Below are positions 34,294-45,379 of a DNA stretch of 45,379 nucleotides, piece by piece. A program made the translations under genes and the position numbers. This DNA comes from an uncultured Acidobacteriota bacterium. Lineage in GTDB: Bacteria; Acidobacteriota; Thermoanaerobaculia; UBA5066. The stretch's first letter is position 1; every line of letters begins with the position of its first letter. Below the pieces are notes generated by a model. It was not told the DNA's origin and did not search any database. It saw only the letters and a program-made list of their open reading frames with translations. Where the stretch lies: NCBI GenBank assembly GCA_903845115.1, contig CAIMWE010000021.1, positions 1 through 45,379 on the forward strand, given 5' to 3'.

Positions 34294-35268
34294 TCACCTC
34301 AGGCCGGGAGGGAGGTCCAGGTCCGGCGGGGCAGGCGGACGGTTCCCGATCTCGGCCGCCGTGATCCAGCCCACGTCGAGGATGAAGAGTCTCGGGTCGA
34401 GCGGAAGGTAGCGCCCCTCCGTCAGCTGCCGGACCTCGTAGTGGAGGCGCGCGGCGGAAGTCATCCCGCTGTGGCCGGCCGACCCGATCCGGTCGCCGCG
34501 CTGGACGCGCTGGCCGGCGCGGACGAGCGGCTTTCCGAGGTGCCCGTACACGGTCCTGAGGCTCTCTCCGTGGGAGAGGACGAGAACGGTTCCGAAGGCG
34601 CGCCAGCCCGCCCCGGCTCTCGACGGGACGGAGCCAGAGAAGACGACCGTTCCCGCCGCCGGCGCGATCACCGCGGCCCCGTCCGGGACGGCGAGGTCGA
34701 TCCCCGGGAAGAATTCGGGGGCGCGCGTCAGCGGCGACGTGCGCGGGCCGAAGGCCGCCGTCGGGACGGCGGCCGACGGCTCCACCGGCGAGCGCGAGGG
34801 GATGTTCGCCGCGCCGGCCACGGGCGCCTCCGCGACCGCCCGGCGGAAGAGCTCCAGGGTGCGGAGGCGCCGCGAGAGACGCAGGACGTTCCCCTCGAGG
34901 CGGTCGGGCGTGAGCGCCTCCTCTTCCTCGGCGGGAGCGAGCAGGCCGGCCGGGAGCGGCACCGAGACCAGGATCGCGACCCGGGCGAGGAAAAGCTCGG
35001 TCGTCCGGAGGCGGGTATCGAGCTTCCCGTAGCGGTTCTGGACCGACTCGAACGCCTCGGCGGAGACCTTCGCCGACTCGCGCAGGGAGAGCCGGTCGGC
35101 GGACCGGCCGAGGTCGTGGAGGAGGTCGGGCGCGGCCATGAGCCCCAGGAAGGCGAGATTCCCCGCGGCCAGCAGGACGAACGCCCAGACGGCTCCCGCC
35201 CGCGGGCCGATCGTCCACGTCCGGGTGGGCTGCTTCGGGTCGTTGGAATGGAGCCGGACCTCGGTCAT
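34294..35268 (-). CDS. LytM/M23-domain protein with degenerate metal site
   Basis: A 324-residue envelope protein: a short cytoplasmic start, one TM helix (about 27-47), a helical/coiled-coil region (about 55-140), a Pro/Ala linker and a C-terminal LytM domain (about 180-300). The fold is clear (APAAGTVVFSG, TVYGHLGKPLVRAGQ, GDRIGSAGHSG), but the metal site is altered. The HxxxD motif reads FFPGID (near 188), losing the first His ligand, and the HLH motif reads RLHYEV (near 272), losing the catalytic His. Inactive LytM proteins such as EnvC and NlpD activate amidases, so a regulatory role in cell-wall cleavage is inferred. It begins ATGA-overlapped with the preceding membrane protein gene and ends a minus-strand run starting at the GH44 gene or carB. 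Confidence 0.88.
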   Translation of the reverse strand: MTEVRLHSNDPKQPTRTWTIGPRAGAVWAFVLLAAGNLAFLGLMAAPDLLHDLGRSADRLSLRESAKVSAEAFESVQNRYGKLDTRLRTTELFLARVAILVSVPLPAGLLAPAEEEEALTPDRLEGNVLRLSRRLRTLELFRRAVAEAPVAGAANIPSRSPVEPSAAVPTAAFGPRTSPLTRAPEFFPGIDLAVPDGAAVIAPAAGTVVFSGSVPSRAGAGWRAFGTVLVLSHGESLRTVYGHLGKPLVRAGQRVQRGDRIGSAGHSGMTSAARLHYEVRQLTEGRYLPLDPRLFILDVGWITAAEIGNRPPAPPDLDLPPGLR

Positions 35269-37262
35269 GAAGGGCGAGCTCGGAGAAAAGCTCGCTCCCC
35301 CACCTCGAAGCCGAGCTTCCTCCGGTCCGTCCCGCTGAGCGGCCGGAACGTGGACGACGGGACGAGGCGAAGGACCCCCGACGACACCGCCGGGACCTCC
35401 AGCCGGTGCCAGCCCCCGAAGGGGATCGCGACCCGCCCGCGCAGGCGGTCGTCCCACAGGACGTCGACCAGGACCAGCGCGTGGTCGGGGCGGGCGTTCC
35501 TGATCGGCAACGAGACGACGCCCCCGCCGCCCCAGGGAATCGCGATCGGCATCGCCGCCGACGACGTCGTCCAGCGGAACGGGCGGCCGTCCGGCTCCCG
35601 CTCCACCGGGAAGAGGCCCGCCGTCGGCTCGTAGGCGAACGCCTGCGCGGGACCGAGCGTCCGGAACCCGCGGTTGAAGATCGAGCCGAGAAGCAGCACG
35701 ACCGCCCCCGCCAGGACCACCGGGACGAGGGCCACGAGGAGGCGCTGCGTCCGCCCCTCGGGAGGGATTTGCAGGCGGGCCGAGAGGATCCCGGCGAGGG
35801 CGGCGATCTCGGCGTAGACCATGTGGGACCCGAAGAGAAAGACGACCAGCAGCCCACAGAGCGCGGCGGCGGCGCCCGCCTTCCGGAGGGCGGTCGCCGT
35901 ATCGGCCTCGTGGAAGGCGAACGCTGCCGCGATCCCCCGGATGATTCCGATCAGGAGCAGGGCCAGGAGAGCGGCCCCCGCGAGCCCCATCTCCGCCAGC
36001 ACGCCGAGGTAGTAGGAGGGGGGATAGTCGGTCGCTCGCACGGGCCGCTCCAGCGACTTCGCGGCCACGTTCGGGAAGTCGTAGAGGAAGGAGCCCAGGC
36101 CGGTCCCCACGACCGGGTGCTTCCGGAACGTGGTCGCCGCGGCCTCGTAGAGGATCATTCTCCCCGAGGCGGTCTCGGAGGGGGTCGGGATGCGGGAGAA
36201 CGACCCTTCCAGGCGGGCCATCAGCGGGGACCGGACCCCTCCCCTCTGCGGGAAGGAGAGCGAGACGGCGAACGCGAGCGCGACGAGGAGCGAGATCCCC
36301 CCGATGACGCGGACCACTCCTCGCCGCACCCCGGGGCGCTCGCCCGCGGCGAGCCGGAACAGGGCCCACAGGACGAAGAGGCCCGCCGCCGTCAGCATCT
36401 CGACGAGCCCCGCGCGGGAACCCGCGTCGGTGACGACGCCCACCAGGAGAACGGACCCCGCCGCCGCGGCGAGCCGGAGCGGGAACCTCCCGGTCGCGGT
36501 CAGCGCGAGGAGGGGGGCGAGCAGCAGGGCCGCGGCCACTCCCGCCGCCGAGGGGTCGGTGAAGGTCGACTGGACCCGGCTCCACTCCGTCCACCTCACG
36601 GAGCGCCAGAGCGGGAGCGCCCCCACCTTCTGGGCCAGCGCCACGCCGCCGGCCGTCAGCGCCGCGAGGACCAGGGCCAGGTCCACGGCCCGCTCTCCGC
36701 TGCGGGTCCTGCCGAGCCAGGCGGCCGCCTGGTAGAAGCCGGCCGCGACGGCCAGGACCGCGAGCGCCGAGAGGGTCCCCGCCACCGCCTGGCTGGCGTC
36801 GGTGCCGAGGACGTTCACGGCCCGCGGCGGCGGCACTCCGCGGAAGAGGAGGTAGGCCGACCGAGCGTAGACGATGCTCGCGGCCGCGGAAACGGCCGAC
36901 CCGACGAAGAGGGCCCACCACGCCGAGAGCAGCGGCGCGAACGGCGCCGTTTCTCCCACTTCGTAGACGGAACGGATCAGCGCACCGGCGAAGTACCCGG
37001 CCACGGCGATCGCCCCCGCGGCGATCGGCTCGGGGAACCCGAAGACGAGGGCCGAGACGCCGGCGACCGTCACGGTGAGGACGGCGAGGATGAAGGAGAG
37101 CCGGCGGGCCGCGAGACCCGTCGCGAAGAGCAGGAGGGCCGCGCCGACGACCGCCGTCCGGTACGCCGGCGACGGGGGGAGGAGGAACGGCGTGACGACC
37201 GAGGATCCGACGATCCAGCCGACCGCGGAGAGGAGGAGCGTGGCGGGCGACCGCGGGTTCAC
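35265..37262 (-). CDS. O-antigen ligase/polymerase-like membrane protein with C-terminal beta domain, second paralogue
   Basis: A 665-residue protein with about a dozen TM helices followed by a soluble C-terminal domain (about 545-665). The Wzy/WaaL-type outer loop is seen as SGRMILYEAAATTFRKHPVVG with GTGLGSFLYDFPN, then DYPPSYYLGVLAEMGL, where most O-antigen ligases have an HNxxL histidine; here none is present. The sequence is an obvious paralogue of the protein encoded next door: TFTDPSAAG matches SFTDPNALG there, YLLFRG matches YLLLRG, and both end in a DRRxLG segment. GTG 37262 overlaps its neighbour's stop by four bases. It probably polymerises or ligates lipid-linked glycan in the inner membrane; substrate unknown. 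Confidence 0.88.
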   Translation of the reverse strand: MNPRSPATLLLSAVGWIVGSSVVTPFLLPPSPAYRTAVVGAALLLFATGLAARRLSFILAVLTVTVAGVSALVFGFPEPIAAGAIAVAGYFAGALIRSVYEVGETAPFAPLLSAWWALFVGSAVSAAASIVYARSAYLLFRGVPPPRAVNVLGTDASQAVAGTLSALAVLAVAAGFYQAAAWLGRTRSGERAVDLALVLAALTAGGVALAQKVGALPLWRSVRWTEWSRVQSTFTDPSAAGVAAALLLAPLLALTATGRFPLRLAAAAGSVLLVGVVTDAGSRAGLVEMLTAAGLFVLWALFRLAAGERPGVRRGVVRVIGGISLLVALAFAVSLSFPQRGGVRSPLMARLEGSFSRIPTPSETASGRMILYEAAATTFRKHPVVGTGLGSFLYDFPNVAAKSLERPVRATDYPPSYYLGVLAEMGLAGAALLALLLIGIIRGIAAAFAFHEADTATALRKAGAAAALCGLLVVFLFGSHMVYAEIAALAGILSARLQIPPEGRTQRLLVALVPVVLAGAVVLLLGSIFNRGFRTLGPAQAFAYEPTAGLFPVEREPDGRPFRWTTSSAAMPIAIPWGGGGVVSLPIRNARPDHALVLVDVLWDDRLRGRVAIPFGGWHRLEVPAVSSGVLRLVPSSTFRPLSGTDRRKLGFEVGERAFLRARPS

Positions 37263-39076
37263 GGGCTCTCCCCCTGCCCGCTCCTGAGCAGGACGCCCAG
37301 CGTCCGCCGGTCGTGGCTCGGAGGCTCGTCCGCCGGGACGAAGACCGGCGAGAACGCGACCGTCAGGACTCCCCCGGTCCGCGGGACGGGCCGCACGGCC
37401 AGGGTTCGCGGGCCGTCGGCGGGAAGGACCACGGAACCGGCCGGAGCGTCGTCCACCCGGAACGTCGCGAGGACGGGCCGTCCGTCCGGCCGCGCGTTCT
37501 CGAGCGTCAGGCGGGCCTCGCTCTCCCCGGCGGCGAGGAGCCGGCCGATCCGCCTCCCCGTCCACTGGCGGCGCGACCCGGCGGACCCCTCGCGAGGATA
37601 GACGCCGATCCAGCCCCCGCCGGCTCCGCGGAAGGGGGCGTCCGGCCCCAGGGTCGACAGGGCGGCCAGCGACGACGCGAGGATTCCCGCCAGGACGAGG
37701 ACCGGGAAGACTCTCCTCGGACCGTGAGGCGGATCCTCCTCCCTCGGCCCCGGCCGGCCGGGGAAGGGGAGGAAGGCCGCGCCCAGAGCCGCGCAGACCG
37801 CGACCTCGGGAAACCGGAGATGGGACCCCGTGAGCGAGGCGGCGAGGAGCCCGAGGAGGCCCGCAGCGCCCGCGACCGCCGGCCACCCGGCTCCAGGCCA
37901 GGCCGTGGCGAGCGTCTTCAGGGCGAGGAGGACGAGCGGCGCCACGGCCCCGATGCCTAGGATCAGGGCCGGCAGCCCCGACTCGGCCGCCACGTCCAGG
38001 AAGGCGTTGGTGGCGTTGTCGGTGAAGAGGGCGGGGCCGTGGGTCCGTTCGTACCGGACCGGGAACTCGTACGGGAACCCTCCGAGGCCGCAGCCGCTCA
38101 GCGGCTCCTCGCCGACGGCCTCGACGGCCGCCCGCCAGAAGAGCGGCCGGTGGCTCGTCAGCTCCACGAACGACCGGGCCGACAGGCCCCCCCCGATCCG
38201 CCGGGCCAGGCCGCCGGCGGCGGCCGGCCCTCCCCGGGGGGCGGCGACCAGGAGGACCGCCGCCAGGACCAGGGCACCCCCCCCGGCGGCGAGGACGGCG
38301 AGCCGGATCCGCCCGCCGGACCGGTACCCCCCGAACGCGGCGGCGAGGGCGGCGATGGCGAGGACGATCAGGGCCGATCGCGATCCGGACCGCTCGAGGG
38401 CGAACGGGGCGAGGAGGAGGGCGGCGGCCGGGACGGCCCGGGCGGCCCCGCGGACCTCCAGGAACGCGGCGACGGAAAGCGGGACGAGAAGGGCGAGGCC
38501 GACGCCGAGGGCGTTCGGGTCGGTGAAGCTCCCGGAGGCCCTCCCGATCAGTTTCCAGTACTCCGAAGAGCCCTCCATCGGGGCGAACCGGAGGAGGGCC
38601 GCCAGGCCCGCGAGCGCAGCCCCCGCCGAAGCCGCGACCAGGAGCGAGCGGCGGCCCCCGGGCGTCCGGGTCAGGCGCGAGAAGGCCTCCGCCGCGAGGA
38701 GCAGCAGGACGAGGGCGGCGAACGTCCGCGTGGCCGCCGCGGTCCGGTCCGCGGCCGTCATCCCGAGCGAGTTGACGAAGAGAGGCTCCACTCTGCCCCT
38801 CAGGAGCAGGTAGAGGGTCTCGCCCCGGGCGACCGAGAGGGCCAGGGAGGCCAGCGAAACCCCCAGGAACCCCAGGCCCCAGCGCCACGTCGCCGCGGGC
38901 AGCACGGGGGAGCCGTCCGTCCGCCGGGTGGCGAGGAGCACCCCGCTCGAGACGGCGAGACCGGCGAGGAGGACGAGATCGGATCCTGCCGGGCATCCGG
39001 CCCACCGGGCGAGGCCCGGAAGGAGCGGGGCCAGGGCCGCGAGGAGCGCGAGCGCGGCGCCGGCCCCTCTCGTCAG
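37259..39076 (-). CDS. O-antigen ligase/polymerase-like membrane protein, first paralogue, probable CTG start
   Basis: A 605-residue Wzy/WaaL-type protein with about a dozen TM helices and a C-terminal soluble domain (about 490-605). The periplasmic loop has [32 protein letters not shown] and [16 protein letters not shown], again without the usual His. No ATG, GTG or TTG occurs in frame near the expected N-terminus. CTG 39076 does fit: AGGAGG lies seven bases upstream, it forms a CTGA four-base overlap with the carB stop like the GTGA and ATGA overlaps downstream, and it keeps the first TM helix whole. The next in-frame GTG would cut about 45 residues, including that helix. It is the proximal member of the tandem pair. 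Confidence 0.87.
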
Positions 39077-42000
39077 ACGAGCGCCTCCTGCAGGGACGAC
39101 ACGGTGACCGGGCGTTCGAGCTCCTGTCCGATCGCTTCGATCGCCGCCGCCGCCGCGGAGAGGGTCGTGAGGCAGGGGATGTCCCTCTCGAGGGAGGTCC
39201 GGCGGATCGCCACCTCGTCGAAGAAGGACTCCTTCCCCAGCGGCGTGTTGATCACCAGGTCGATCTCCCCGTTGATCATCCGGTCGACGACGTTCGGACG
39301 CCCCTCGTTCACCTTCAGGACGGCGTCCGCGGTCAGGCCTCCCGCGCGGAGCGCCCGGACCGTCCCGCCCGTCGCCATCAGCGAGAACCCGAGCTTCGAC
39401 AGCTGGCGGGCGAGGGGGAGGATCGCCGCCTTGTCGCCGTCGTGGACCGACAGGAACGCCCGTCCCTTCTTCGGGAGCCGGATGCCCGCTCCCAGCGCCG
39501 CCTTCAGGAAGGCCATGCCGAAGCTCCGGTCCCGCCCCATCACCTCGCCGGTCGAGCGCATCTCCGGTCCGAGGATCGTGTCGACCCCTTCGAACTTCCG
39601 GAACGGGAAGACGGGGGCCTTGATCGAGAAGCCGCCGACCGGCGGCTCGTGCGTGAGGCCGACCTCCTCGAGCGTCGCCCCGAGGCAGAGGCGCGCCGCG
39701 AGCCGGGCGAACGGGACCCCGGTCGCCTTCGAGACGAAGGGGACGGTGCGCGAGGCGCGCGGGTTCACCTCGAGGACGTAGAGCGTCCCGTTTCGGATGG
39801 CGTACTGGACGTTCATGAGGCCGACGACGCCCAGGGCCTCTCCCAGCTTGGCGGTGGCCGCCCGGATCTCGCCGAGCGCTTCCCGGGGAACGCGGCGGTA
39901 CGGCGGGATGACGGCGTACGAATCGCCCGAGTGGATGCCGGCTTCCTCGATGTGCTGCATCACCCCGGCGACGATCACCCTCTTCCCGTCGCCGATCGCG
40001 TCGACGTCCAGCTCGAACGCGTCCTCGAGGAAACGGTCGATCAGGATCGGCCGTCCGGGGAAAGCCGCCAGCGCCTCCGCGAGGACCCCCTCCAGCGCCC
40101 TCTCGTCGTAGACGATGCGCATCGCGCGCCCGCCCAGGACGTAGCTGGGGCGGACGAGAAGGGGGAACCCGAGGCTCCTTCCCGCGGCCATCCCCTCCGT
40201 CACGTCGCGCGCCGTCGCCCAGGGAGGAGCCGAGAGGCCCAGCTCCCCGAGCAGCTCTCCGAACCGCTCCCGGTCCTCGGCCCGGTCGATCGCGTCCGGG
40301 GCGGTTCCCAGGATCCTCACGCCGGCCCGCTCGAGCGGGTGCGCGAGCTTCAGAGGCGTCTGCCCGCCGAACTGGACCAGGACGCCGAGGGGCTTCTCCT
40401 TGTCGACGACCGCCATCACGTCCTCGAACGTCAGCGGCTCGAAGTAGAGCCGGTCGGAGGTGTCGTAGTCGGTCGAGACGGTCTCCGGGTTGCAGTTCAC
40501 CATCACCGACTCGTACCCGGCAGCCGAGATCGCCTTCGCCGCGTGGACGCAGCAGTAGTCGAACTCCAGCCCCTGGCCGATGCGGTTCGGGCCCGACCCG
40601 AGGACGATGACGGTCGGCTTGCCGCTCGGCCTCGCCTCGTCCTCGGTCTCGTAGCAGGAATAGAGATAGGGCGTCTCCGACTCGAACTCGGCCGCGCAGG
40701 TGTCGACTCGAGAGAAGACCGGCTCCGTGCCCGCCGCCGCGCGCGCGGCCCGCACGGCCGCGGCGGACGAGCCGGTCAGCACCGCGACGTCCTCGTCCGA
40801 GAACCCGGCCCGCTTGGCCGGGCGGAGGTCCTGCGACGCCGGGTCCCCGCCCGCCCGGACGGCCCGCTCGACCTCGATCACCTCGACGAAGCGCTCCAGG
40901 AACCAGGGGTCGATCCCGGTGAGGGCGTACGCTTCGGAGACGGGCATGCCGGCGCGGAGGGCGTCCAGGACGGCGAAGATCCGCTCGGGGCGAGGGACCC
41001 GGAGCGACTCCGCCTTCGGCATCGGCGGGACGTCGAGACCGTGCGAGACCCAGCCTCCGCAGCCGGTCTCCAGCGAGCGGAGGGCCTTCCCGAACGACTC
41101 GGCGAAGGTCCGCCCGAGGGCCATCACCTCGCCGACCGATTTCATCTGGACGCCGAGCGTCGTCGACGCCCCGGCGAACTTCTCGAACGCGAAGCGGGGG
41201 ATCTTCACGACCACGTAGTCGAGCGTCGGCTCGAAGGAGGCCGGCGTCTTCTTGGTGATGTCGTTCAGCAGCTCGTCGAGCGCGTACCCCACGGCGAGGA
41301 GGGCGGCGATCTTCGCGATCGGGAAGCCAGTCGCCTTCGAGGCGAGGGCGGACGACCGCGAGACGCGGGGGTTCATCTCGATCACGATCCGCCGTCCCGT
41401 CTCCGGGTGGACCGCGAACTGGATGTTCGAGCCGCCGGTCGCGACGCCCACCCGGCGGATGACCTTCTTGGCGTCGTCCCTCATCGCCTGGTACTCGACG
41501 TCGGAGAGGGTCATCTGCGGGGCGATCGTGATCGAGTCGCCGGTGTGGACTCCCATCGGGTCGAGGTTCTCGATGGAGCAGACGACGACGCAGGTGTCCC
41601 TGGTGTCGCGCATCAGCTCCAGCTCGAACTCCTTCCATCCGAGGACCGACTCCTCGACCAGCACCTCGTGGACGGGCGAGAGGAGGAGTCCCCGCTTGAC
41701 GATCGCCTCGAAATCCTCGGCGTTGTAGGCGATCCCGCCCCCGGTCCCTCCCAGGGTGAAGGAGGGGCGGATGATCACCGGAAAGCCGAACGACTTCGCG
41801 ACGACGCGCGCCTCGTCGAAGTTCCGGGCGATCCCCGACCGGAGGACGTCGACCCCCACTTCCTGCATCGCGCTCTTGAAGAGGAGCCGGTCCTCGCCGA
41901 GCATGACCGACTCGGCCGAGGCCCCCAGGAGCTCGACGGAGAACTTAGCGAGCGTTCCCGCCTGGGAGAGGGCGATGGCCAGGTTCAGGGCGGTCTGCCC

Positions 42001-42273
42001 GCCCACCGTCGGAAGGAGGGCGTCGGGACGCTCCCGTTCGATCACTCTGGACACCGTATCCAGCTCCAGGGGCTCGATATAGGTGGCGTCGGCGAACTCC
42101 GGGTCGGTCATGATCGTGGCCGGGTTCGAGTTGACCAGGACGACCCGGTATCCCTCCCGCTTGAGGGCCTGGCACGCCTGGGTCCCCGAGTAGTCGAACT
42201 CGCACGCCTGGCCGATGACGATCGGTCCGGAGCCCAGGACCAGGATCGACCTCAGATCGGTTCTCTTCGGCAC
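39073..42273 (-). CDS. carB: Carbamoyl-phosphate synthase large subunit
   Basis: A 1066-residue CarB, the subunit that makes carbamoyl phosphate from bicarbonate, ammonia and two ATP for pyrimidine and arginine synthesis. It has two ATP-grasp halves plus an allosteric domain. The N-half has [33 protein letters not shown] and [18 protein letters not shown]; the C-half repeats with [34 protein letters not shown] and [18 protein letters not shown]. The MGS-like regulatory domain occupies about 935-1066 ([20 protein letters not shown]). Length matches the family (1050-1080). GTG 42273 is the start, although no strong ribosome site is visible. The small subunit carA is not adjacent. Its last codons carry the ribosome site of the next gene, so envelope-gene translation is tied to carB. 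Confidence 0.97.
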
Positions 42274-42306: not shown

Positions 42307-45300
42307 TCATCTCGCCGTGTCGGGGGACGCCACGATGGCGAACGGGTCCCCCGAGCCGTTGTTGATGACCGACGCGAACGCGAGCACGGGCTGGTCGCTC
42401 GTGAACTCGAGGAAGAGGTTGGTGTCCGTTACCCCCGCCGCCCCGGGGAAGCCTCCCAGGGAGACCTGCCGGAACCCGTTGGCCGGCAGCGGCCCGATCG
42501 AGCTCGTGCCGATGCTCGAGCCGGCGCCGCGCCGCAGGCCGGCGCTCACCGTCGCCGCCTGGGTGCCGGGATTCACGAAGACCACGTTCGTCCGGTAGCC
42601 CGTCCCGCCGTCCGCGCTGAGGGCGAGCTGGACCAGGATCCCGGCCGTCATCGCCTGAGAGGCGTCGAGCCCGGGGAGCCACTCTCCCGAGACGGCCCCG
42701 GCGCCGCACGCGTTCACGTTGTTGACGACGGACGAGACGATCAGCGGACCGCTCGTTTGGAGCCGGATCGGTCCGTACGCGCCCGGGCCCCGGCCGAACA
42801 GGGACTGGAGGACGTTGTCGTAGGAGACCTGGCTCCGGCCGGCCACCGCGAAGGGAGCGGCGGGATAGGCCTGGCCGCTCGTCTGGTCGTAGAGCGTGGG
42901 CGTCACGGTCACCGCCGACGGACCGGGGTTCATCAGACGGAGGTCCGTGTGGAACTCGGCGCCGCCCGCCCCGACGCTGTACGCCGAGGACGGCAGGAAG
43001 TAGGTGCGGGCCGACCCCCCGGCCCCGTCGCACCCGGTCACCGCGAGGGCGCCCGCCGCGCCGCTGACCCCGACCGGAGCGGCGTTGCCGTCGCTGGCGG
43101 TGGGGGTGCCAGCCCCGAACCCGACCGTGAACGAGCCGCACTTCCCCGCCGCCGTCGCGAAGCAGACCGAGGCGGAGGGGCCGTTCGGGAGCGCGCCGTT
43201 CCCTCCGGAGACCGTGACGCGGTAGACGCCGGAGGAGGTGACGCTTCCCTGCGCCGCCTTCCCGCTGACGGAGGTGGTCACCGAAGCGGGGGTCAGGCTC
43301 GCGCCGTCGTAAATGAGGTCCGCCGAGAAGGAGGCGATGCTCGGCGTCGCGCTGTTCGCGAGGCTGATCTCCAGGCAGCCCTGGGTCCCCGCAGCCGTCG
43401 AGGCGGTGGCCACGGTGAAGAGCCCCGTGTTGCCCCCGGACCCTGCCGGACCGCCTCCGATCACGGCCAGCGTCGCCGACCGCGCAGGGAGCGAGACCGC
43501 GAGCGCACCGCGGACGACGGGAACCGTGCCCGACGCCCCCAGCCGCGAGGAGGCCTGGACGCGGTAGAGCGCGGCGGAGGTCCCGGTGGACCCCGCGATG
43601 GAGACCGCCGCGTCCCGGGCGGCCGTGTCCTTGTTGAAGAGGAGGACGTAGACCCTCGTGGAATCCCGGAGGGCGTACGCTCCAACCGCGTCCACGTCGG
43701 AGCTCACGGCCTGGACGCTCTCGCTCCCGACCCTCGACCCGTTCCCGTCGTAGTCCAGGTAGAGCTTGAACGCGTCCTCCACGAGCGAGCGGTCTTCCGG
43801 CGCCGTCCACCGGTTCGCCAGGTCCACCCCCTCGCGCCCGAAGATCGCGAGCACCTCCGCCTGCGCCAGCGTCGACGAAAGGCCCTTGTCGCCGCCCCAG
43901 CTGTACTCGGTGATCGCGAGTTTCGTGCCGGGACAGTACTGGTCGATCCACGCCTTCAGGCGGGGGATCAGGTTCACCGGCTGGGCGACCCACGATTCGT
44001 CGGTGTACGTCGGGTCGTAGAGGCCCTTGATGGAGCGAAGCCGGAGAGCCGACGTCGCCGCCGACTCGTCGTCCGACAGCGCCACGTTGTTCGCGTACGG
44101 GTAGGCGTGGACGTCGAGATAGTCGATGAGGCGGACGCCCGTCGCCTGCCTGGTGTCGTTCACCTGCTTGAGGTACCAGGCGAGCCAGGGAAGGCCCCCG
44201 TGCGCCTGCCGGTCCGGCCCGTCGGCGCAGTTGTCGGCATCCGAGAAGAAGTACTCGCACCAGCCCCACGAGACGGGCCCCAGGAGCTGGGCCCCCGGGT
44301 CCTGCGCCTTGATGGCGGCCGCGTAGTCCCGGGTCTTCTGCCAGAGCTCGTCGTAGGTGGCCTTCTGGGGGTGGACGTCCCGGTGCGTGGAGGACCAGAT
44401 CCCCGGTTCGTTGTCGAGGGCGAAGAACCTGACCCCGCCGGCTCCGGCCGTTCCCACTCGCGAGGCGATGTGCTTCATCCAGTCGGTCACGAAGCCCGTG
44501 CCGACCTCCTTCGACGTGTCGTGCGGGTCGTTGCCCGTGACGGGCGTGCCGTCCTTGTGCTTTCCGTTTCCGGCGTCGGGGTTGCACCAGGAAGCGCCTC
44601 CGGCCGCGTCGCACTCGGTCTGCTGCTGGGCGCCGTACTTCGCCACGGAGAACCCCCAGCGGCGCACGCGGTCGACGGGAGTCCAGCCGATGAGAGGGAC
44701 CGTGATGAGGGGCTCGCTGCCCGCGGCGCGGGCCTCGTCGATGAAGAGGTCGGCCGTGGAGCCGGCGGGCAGCGCTCCCGGATTCGCGTTGTCCTGGGCA
44801 TAGCTGATGTAGAACCAGTCGTTCGCGCTGTTCTGCGTGTCGGTTTGCCAGCTGTACCGGGTGGCCCCGTTCCCTCCCCAGCGACGGACCGGGAACTTCA
44901 GGCGCGAGAGCTGCGCCGCCGTCCCGAAGCTCACCCCGTAGATGAGCGGGCTGACGGCGTGGCGGCCTGCGGCGGGGTCGACCGCGACCGTCACGGCGGC
45001 CCCCGCCGGCGGCGGCGCCGTCCGCTCGGCGAGCTGGATGTCGTCCAGGTACACCGGCGCCTGGGTTCCTCCGCTCCCGTCCATGAACCAGAAACCGGAG
45101 AGGACGCCGGACGGCGTTCCGAGGCTCGCGAACGGGACGTGCACCTGCACCCACTGGCCCGCCGGGATCCTCCCGCCGGGGATGAAGCCGGACACGGCGG
45201 CGTCCCCGGAAATCTTGCCCGCGACGAGCGCCGCCAGACGGACGTTCTGCCCGCCCGAGGGCCCGCCGTGGATCCAGAAATCGAGGGCTTCGTAGGTGGA

Positions 45301-45379
45301 GAGGTCGATCCCGGCGTCCCGCTCGAGGTAGAGCCCGCCGTAGCCGCTCGGCTCGAACGAGATGGCGGCGCTCCCGGAG
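42307..45379 (-). CDS. Secreted GH44-family glycoside hydrolase with cohesin-like and tandem C-terminal modules (5' end outside window)
   Basis: The last 1023 or so residues of a large secreted enzyme; the signal peptide and start lie beyond the right edge. Visible order: a carbohydrate-binding beta-sandwich (to about 115, GLYLERDAGIDLSTYEALDF); a GH44 catalytic domain (about 120-590) with the acid/base Glu in LDNEPGIWSSTHRDVHP (near 323) and the nucleophile Glu in AITEYSWGGDKG (near 489); a cohesin-like domain (about 649-785, GCLEISLANS and ADLIYDGASLTP); and two related beta repeats (about 790-1023), HTDLRLMNPGPSAVTV and YRTNVVFVNPGTQAATV. GH44 enzymes cut beta-1,4-glucans and xyloglucan. 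The tandem tail may anchor or display the protein. It ends 33 bases before carB on the same strand. Confidence 0.92.
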   Translation of the reverse strand, partial: SGSAAISFEPSGYGGLYLERDAGIDLSTYEALDFWIHGGPSGGQNVRLAALVAGKISGDAAVSGFIPGGRIPAGQWVQVHVPFASLGTPSGVLSGFWFMDGSGGTQAPVYLDDIQLAERTAPPPAGAAVTVAVDPAAGRHAVSPLIYGVSFGTAAQLSRLKFPVRRWGGNGATRYSWQTDTQNSANDWFYISYAQDNANPGALPAGSTADLFIDEARAAGSEPLITVPLIGWTPVDRVRRWGFSVAKYGAQQQTECDAAGGASWCNPDAGNGKHKDGTPVTGNDPHDTSKEVGTGFVTDWMKHIASRVGTAGAGGVRFFALDNEPGIWSSTHRDVHPQKATYDELWQKTRDYAAAIKAQDPGAQLLGPVSWGWCEYFFSDADNCADGPDRQAHGGLPWLAWYLKQVNDTRQATGVRLIDYLDVHAYPYANNVALSDDESAATSALRLRSIKGLYDPTYTDESWVAQPVNLIPRLKAWIDQYCPGTKLAITEYSWGGDKGLSSTLAQAEVLAIFGREGVDLANRWTAPEDRSLVEDAFKLYLDYDGNGSRVGSESVQAVSSDVDAVGAYALRDSTRVYVLLFNKDTAARDAAVSIAGSTGTSAALYRVQASSRLGASGTVPVVRGALAVSLPARSATLAVIGGGPAGSGGNTGLFTVATASTAAGTQGCLEISLANSATPSIASFSADLIYDGASLTPASVTTSVSGKAAQGSVTSSGVYRVTVSGGNGALPNGPSASVCFATAAGKCGSFTVGFGAGTPTASDGNAAPVGVSGAAGALAVTGCDGAGGSARTYFLPSSAYSVGAGGAEFHTDLRLMNPGPSAVTVTPTLYDQTSGQAYPAAPFAVAGRSQVSYDNVLQSLFGRGPGAYGPIRLQTSGPLIVSSVVNNVNACGAGAVSGEWLPGLDASQAMTAGILVQLALSADGGTGYRTNVVFVNPGTQAATVSAGLRRGAGSSIGTSSIGPLPANGFRQVSLGGFPGAAGVTDTNLFLEFTSDQPVLAFASVINNGSGDPFAIVASPDTAR

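Follow-up and report, generated by a model that had tools for sequence, protein, structure and literature searches.

The C-terminal tail of a glycoside hydrolase family 44 (GH44) protein from an uncultured Acidobacteriota bacterium (assembly GCA_903845115.1) is best read, on the strength of predicted structures, as a dyad of a new, strongly expanded family of the ASRAH superfamily that is distantly related to DUF5719 and lies outside the ASRT-like family. The protein is encoded at one end of the window, the entire contig CAIMWE010000021.1 (G000:C21; 45,379 bases). Its open reading frame (ORF) runs off the contig on the 5′ side, the window being the contig in full, and the start of the protein is therefore missing. 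We lean toward the view that the dyad acts as an exchangeable glycan-binding accessory module that has been multiplied in this lineage. The domain boundaries, internal duplication, predicted fold, spread, cargo mix, and swapping of the tail were all established by computation.

An original prediction, made from the DNA alone, had described two related repeats at the end of the GH44 protein, and this duplication holds up. The 239-residue tail consists of two related halves that align as single sequences with a score of 58, a value equaled or exceeded in 6 of 2,000 shuffles, and profiles of the two halves built from 64 copies (55 of them from the same genome) align in hhalign with an E value of 3.5e-9. 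An AlphaFold2 model of the tail, made with seven related sequences, contains two beta-sandwiches (predicted local distance difference test score [pLDDT], 81.7; predicted TM-score [pTM], 0.79), and the N-half folded alone gives a pLDDT of 81.9. In VIA-align, the modeled C-half superimposes on Thermotoga TM1070 (PDB 1nc7) with a Z score of 14.9 and a root mean square deviation of 2.7 over 113 residues, the next fold scoring 5.8. ASRT-family chains occupy ranks 1 to 5 for the modeled N-half, namely, 1nc7 (Z score, 11.6) and the Anabaena sensory rhodopsin transducer entries 2ii7, 2ii8, 2ii9, and 2iia (Z scores, 10.0 to 10.2), with the next fold at 6.7, and these lists leave room for other families. 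In a Foldseek run on the whole two-domain model, the first ranks went to multi-domain beta-galactosidases, whose TM-scores did not exceed 0.2 and which we judged to be generic matches; 1nc7 took rank 5 with a probability of 1.00.

In the definition given by De Souza, Iyer, and Aravind, the ASRAH superfamily is marked by a shared fold, a near-absolute Asn that ends strand 2, and a Trp at the beginning of strand 1; these authors predicted that a cleft bordered by strand 2 would bind sugars, described the extracellular forms as dyads or tetrads, and named in their main text fusions to an amidase and to one glycosyltransferase (PMC2739507). In the tail, the Asn at the strand-2 turn is retained by 58 of the 64 N-halves and by 48 of the 64 C-halves (N817 and N936 in the window copy). 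The C-halves share the signature [FY]-R-[TS]-N-x4-N, with the Arg present in 60 and the Asn at position −5 in 62 of the 64 copies, and in hhalign alignments this Arg falls in the register of the His that contacts the ligand in ASRT. Against a set of ASRT-type sequences drawn from Acidobacteriota (10 rows), the N-half profile scored 32.7 and the C-half profile 24.2, and none of 200 column shuffles reached either value (maxima, 12.8 and 13.0). Control profiles of PKD, DUF11, CARDB, and the PCRxxDTR module described below scored between 8.9 and 17.4, the PKD, CARDB, and DUF11 alignments being thin (10, 1, and 3 members, respectively). PKD, DUF11, and CARDB, with scores at background from these thin alignments, were set aside as relatives.

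Several observations speak against both the assignment and the function that it suggests. The hhalign probabilities toward ASRT are modest (77% for the N-half and 23% for the C-half), and the 10-row set contains two duplicates and at least three proteins that are not solo ASRT; with the three solo ASRT sequences only, the probabilities fall to 13% and 5% and the scores to 21.9 and 19.1, near the best control at 17.4. In the genome, nothing matches PF07100, the Pfam model for ASRT, and plain hmmscan gave no hit that would link the tail to the superfamily. The His and Cys contacts of ASRT are not conserved, and position −7 is variable in the N-halves. The strand-1 Trp is W in 17 of 54 non-gap N-halves and Y in 9, including the window copy, and the C-halves have no Trp among the ten columns counted. 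The 50 rows listed for the model of the whole tail include 1nc7 but none of the Anabaena ASRT entries. Moreover, the sugar-binding role of ASRT is itself a prediction (PMC2739507), a common fold is no proof of function, and many of the proteins that carry the tail, such as those with leucine-rich repeats (LRR), BNR, subtilase, or collagen parts, are not carbohydrate enzymes. The sequence link to ASRT is thus weak by itself, and it is the predicted structures that carry the case. Membership in the ASRT-like family proper (PF07100, with its SHEshChhN signature) was rejected on the missing PF07100 match and the unconserved His and Cys.

Beta-sandwich spacers are frequent in secreted proteins, and the halves of the tail might be generic structural Ig-like spacers that hold no ligand, a reading with which the presence of several copies in proteins with PKD or CARDB/DUF11 domains would agree. 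We consider this improbable, since the ASRT fold match stands 3.3 to 9.1 Z units above the next fold, the thin PKD, CARDB, and DUF11 profiles do not align with the halves, and the polar Arg and Asn of the C-half are so well kept. Other database searches with the tail gave nothing that we could use as a relative: neither Pfam nor NCBIfam has a named family for the window copy, a PDB sequence search with the tail reached a best E value of 1.4, a PDB match to profilin obtained with a profile (E value, 0.021) and the NCBIfam matches of the members of profile A1, which was built from 14 diverse tail copies (best E value, 0.0029, to an arginine repressor), were judged to be chance, and a viral scan with alignment A3 returned 37 pattern matches, none of which encodes a relative.

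The original prediction had proposed searching for the tail in other secreted proteins of the same genome, and such proteins are plentiful. As a single-sequence query the tail finds 26 places in its own genome, and profile A1 finds 59 matches at an E value of 0.01. In the retrieved stretches of this genome there are 59 copies across 39 ORFs, a set that overlaps with but is not identical to the 59 genome-wide matches; the weakest are fragments. By a home-made rule, which is looser for the tail ORFs because those were read from stop to stop, a signal-peptide-like segment is present in 23 of the 30 tail-bearing ORFs with an intact 5′ side and in 5 of 16 control genes from the window; most of the tail proteins thus look exported.

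Of the 36 ORFs that have a known stop, 27 reach it no more than 25 residues beyond their final copy, and together with the exported-looking cargo this might point to a signal for sorting or secretion at the C terminus, comparable to the C-terminal domain of type IX cargo. In the other nine, however, the last copy lies nearer the N terminus or internally, and in the relatives L081, L082, L085, and L086 the tail, as read by eye, directly follows the signal peptide. These N-terminal and internal copies argue against a sorting signal, which we regard as very unlikely, and against the expectation that the tail always sits at the C terminus. A search for the type IX protein SprA (TIGR04189) found no match in the genome and was silent in all controls too, so that it is uninformative on this point. 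What stands of the original proposal of a lineage-specific surface-retention or secretion signal is that the carriers are mostly exported-looking and, as described below, concentrated in one class; its reading as a C-terminal secretion signal is not supported.

A further possibility is that the dyad is mainly an oligomerization module, through which single-dyad proteins would pair and two-dyad proteins would close an internal four-domain assembly, giving avidity or linking of cargo at the surface. ASRT forms tetramers. In the TM1070 tetramer the cleft is situated in part at the dimer interface, extracellular relatives are found as pairs or quartets of the domain (PMC2739507), and two dyads, that is, four domains, are present in 20 of the 39 ORFs. 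One detected dyad is found in the remaining 19, however, some of which are truncated at contig ends, and the conserved polar signature of strand 2 is equally compatible with a ligand site, so we hold this explanation to be rather unlikely.

The cargo of the module is diverse. A Pfam scan of the window ORF and 34 of the 39 ORFs (those on contigs C24, C151, C165, and C265 lying outside it) identified glycoside hydrolases (GH44, GH10 with CBM4_9, and a GH5-type cellulase match barely above the cutoff), other enzymes (a calcineurin-like phosphoesterase, Abhydrolase_10, three FGE-sulfatase proteins, and one subtilase), and proteins with BNR/sortilin repeats, LRR, PKD, or collagen repeats, and several ORFs had no Pfam match. 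The dyad and the FGE-sulfatase (formylglycine-generating-enzyme-like) domain occur in both orders in the three proteins concerned (L031:2731-4539, L102:3-1571, and L032:3-1817). In a tree of the 64 copies, the window tail falls into a clade of 11 with a support of 100/100 whose cargo is otherwise unrelated, including the GH44 protein, a PKD protein, an FGE-sulfatase protein, and relatives in which the module stands between a signal peptide and PKD or cupredoxin-like parts. In the relatives L082 and L086, the close tail follows the signal peptide (by eye) and precedes a PKD domain; in L085 it lies ahead of a C-terminal cupredoxin-like part (25.3 bits against a cutoff of 27), with a similar arrangement by eye in L082 and L086. 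These three may possibly be secreted copper proteins tethered by the dyad.

Comparison of GH44 proteins also indicates that the tail is exchangeable. We compared 35 of the 38 GH44 matches in the class, omitting three short ones, and found the dyad in the window protein and not in the other 34, with 4 of the 35 being truncated on their 3′ side; the tail is not a property of GH44 as such. A GH44 paralogue of the same genome (contig C281; stop-to-stop length, 853 codons; start signal-peptide-like by eye) shares the front layout and the GH44 module of the window protein and has a different tail, and this internal comparison indicates that the catalytic part is constant while the tail is swapped. 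Behind the catalytic part, the remaining GH44 proteins of the class, apart from the two groups described next, carry additions that look SLH-like or fn3-like by eye, or hardly anything at all.

The paralogue ends in another exchangeable module, some 122 residues long (FYxLxPCRxxDTR ... DVNGWFE; L048:1596-1961, minus strand), which is present in 10 copies in this genome (C281 and nine other places) and in 4 of the 35 GH44 proteins; a Pfam scan of this stretch in the C281 paralogue gave nothing at an E value of 0.01. A further 13 of the 35 stop 22 to 27 residues past the catalytic match and end in a short sequence resembling (L)IFxDGFESGxTxxW, which could be a sorting tag or a domain stub; within the open-licence library searched, the string DGFESG was found in no paper.

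The tail module is mainly a trait of one class and is not seen in one well-sampled family. Tail matches were found in 48 of 60 genomes including the source genome, that is, in 47 of 59 relatives, and the 12 without a match comprise every one of the 11 members sampled from family f8, plus one member of family f11. When 297 genomes were drawn evenly from the phylum, the source genome included, 21 matched at 1e-10, of which 18 are of the same class or closer (33 are listed as such) and 3 lie outside it; 256 genomes of this draw that have no match are unlisted. With up to 47 candidates scored per genome in the 60-genome set and up to 9 in the 297-genome draw, copy numbers are lower bounds and misses are weaker evidence. 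Six named loci in public genomes carry the module, five of them titled Acidobacteria, Acidobacteriota, or Holophagales and one Actinobacteria. The last duplicates an ORF of another locus, with L083:4198-8724 and L084:498-5024 containing the same 1,509-codon ORF with identical translations in assemblies filed as Acidobacteria (ACB1) and Actinobacteria (ATB1), and we therefore take the lineage to be Acidobacteriota; one of the two contigs is probably misbinned. Literature searches confined to an open-licence library turned up no account of the module in Acidobacteriota.

These results lead us to infer sugar binding, the kind of ligand, and a role in retention as follows. The dyad would serve as an exchangeable accessory module on exported proteins, and each half would probably accommodate a sugar or a short glycan segment in the cleft along strand 2, where the near-invariant Arg and Asn of the C-half would sit on the strand that carries the ligand-contacting His and Cys of the ASRT family. 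In the GH44 protein, the CBM8-like domain and the catalytic module would handle beta-glucan or xyloglucan, and the dyad would add a second glycan contact, either to a surface or matrix polysaccharide of the cell itself, keeping the enzyme near the cell, or to the substrate. Since many cargoes are not carbohydrate enzymes, substrate targeting cannot be the general role, and because the cargo is mostly not carbohydrate-active, binding to the cell's own glycan is the likelier of the two. The original prediction had named a match to a known carbohydrate-binding family as a finding that would count against it, and this has been approached in that the halves appear to share their fold with a superfamily for which sugar binding has been predicted (PMC2739507); retention through a cell-surface glycan would still be possible.

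Taken further, the dyad might be a lineage-wide docking tag by which unrelated exported proteins, dozens per genome, all bind one self-made extracellular polysaccharide. We think this doubtful; if true, the matrix would be a scaffold for glycosidases, phosphoesterases, FGE-sulfatase-type proteins, and adhesion-like proteins that functions without cohesin-dockerin pairs.

The GH44 assignment in the original prediction is certain by sequence, with a PF12891 match of 228.7 bits (E value, 1.1e-67; cutoff, 25.1) and an E value of 3.2e-118 to the cellulase PDB 3ii1 (Table 1). We take the catalytic Glu pair to be probably E324 (LDNEP) and E491 (TEYSWG). In front of this module lies a domain that the original prediction had missed, residues 4 to 114 of which match a Dictyostelium family 8 carbohydrate-binding module (CBM8; PDB 7t7y) in phmmer with an E value of 1.9e-13 and which also has a weak CBM_11 match (E value, 0.11). 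A domain is indeed present where a cohesin-like module had been described, although its identity as a cohesin falls short: the PF00963 match over residues 655 to 722 scores 15.2 bits against a cutoff of 24.1 (18.0 bits in the genome search), and residues 651 to 783 searched alone against the PDB at an E value of 10 found no cohesin. This sub-threshold match is the sole cohesin match in the genome at an E value of 1, and Dockerin_1, the one dockerin model tried, has no match in the assembly, which is 96% complete. The reported lack of a dockerin thus extends, for this model, from the window to the assembly, and we rejected a cohesin-dockerin system on these grounds.

Table 1. Features of the window and of related GH44 proteins
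Feature	Position	Strand	Remarks
GH44 protein ORF	42307..45378	-	1023 codons + stop; 5′ side truncated at contig end
N-terminal CBM8-like carbohydrate-binding domain, incomplete	45025..45378	-	residues 1-118; phmmer to PDB 7t7y; weak CBM_11
GH44 catalytic module	43459..45000	-	residues 127-640; PF12891 and PDB 3ii1 alignment
Cohesin-like beta domain, identity unsure	43030..43428	-	residues 651-783; PF00963 sub-threshold
C-terminal tail module, predicted dyad of ASRAH-type beta-sandwich domains	42310..43026	-	residues 785-1023; profile A1 covers 789-1018
ASRAH-like domain 1	42667..43008	-	residues 791-904; strand-2 signature HTDLRLMN, turn Asn N817
ASRAH-like domain 2	42310..42663	-	residues 906-1023; strand-2 signature YRTNVVFVN with R929, N931, turn Asn N936
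GH44 proteins ending in FxDGFESG-like motif	L138, L152, L154, L156, L158, L159, L161, L164, L165, L166, L168, L172, L173		relatives

Downstream of the GH44 ORF, on the same strand and 33 bases away, lies carB (39073-42273), and two neighboring genes at 35268-38998 (minus strand) each encode an O-antigen ligase Wzy_C domain (44.8 and 55.8 bits). These three scanned neighbors give no sign of a polysaccharide-utilization cluster, and nothing can be seen upstream because the contig ends.

A module that recurs tens of times per genome in a large part of one class, and whose window copy nevertheless has no name in Pfam or NCBIfam, may be of interest beyond this enzyme. Through the predicted link to the ASRT fold, the sugar binding proposed in 2009 could be examined on a large number of secreted proteins that lend themselves to expression, some of them glycoside hydrolases whose substrates are known in kind, and if binding proves true, the tail would be a candidate for a new family of carbohydrate-binding modules.

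Among known systems, GH44 endoglucanases/xyloglucanases such as PDB 3ii1 and the NCBIfam family EpsB (NF041873) resemble the window protein in the catalytic module and active-site motifs, but at 362.6 bits against a cutoff of 1,250, a score somewhat lowered by the truncation of the protein, it is not an EpsB equivalog. The N-terminal domain is homologous to CBM8 (PDB 7t7y), the window copy being truncated by the contig end. DUF5719 (PF18986), which is possibly the actinobacterial dyad family of PMC2739507, matches 3 of the 14 A1 members weakly (best E value, 1e-6) and one protein of the source genome at 26.5 bits against a cutoff of 26.2, with three other listed proteins below the cutoff and no match to the window copy at an E value of 10. 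From the ASRAH/ASRT proteins (PF07100, formerly DUF1362; TM1070, 1nc7) the tail differs in having no PF07100 match, no His/Cys ligand signature, and many types of cargo, whereas it is like them in its predicted beta-sandwich fold, in the mostly kept Asn of strand 2, and in its extracellular occurrence in pairs and fours.

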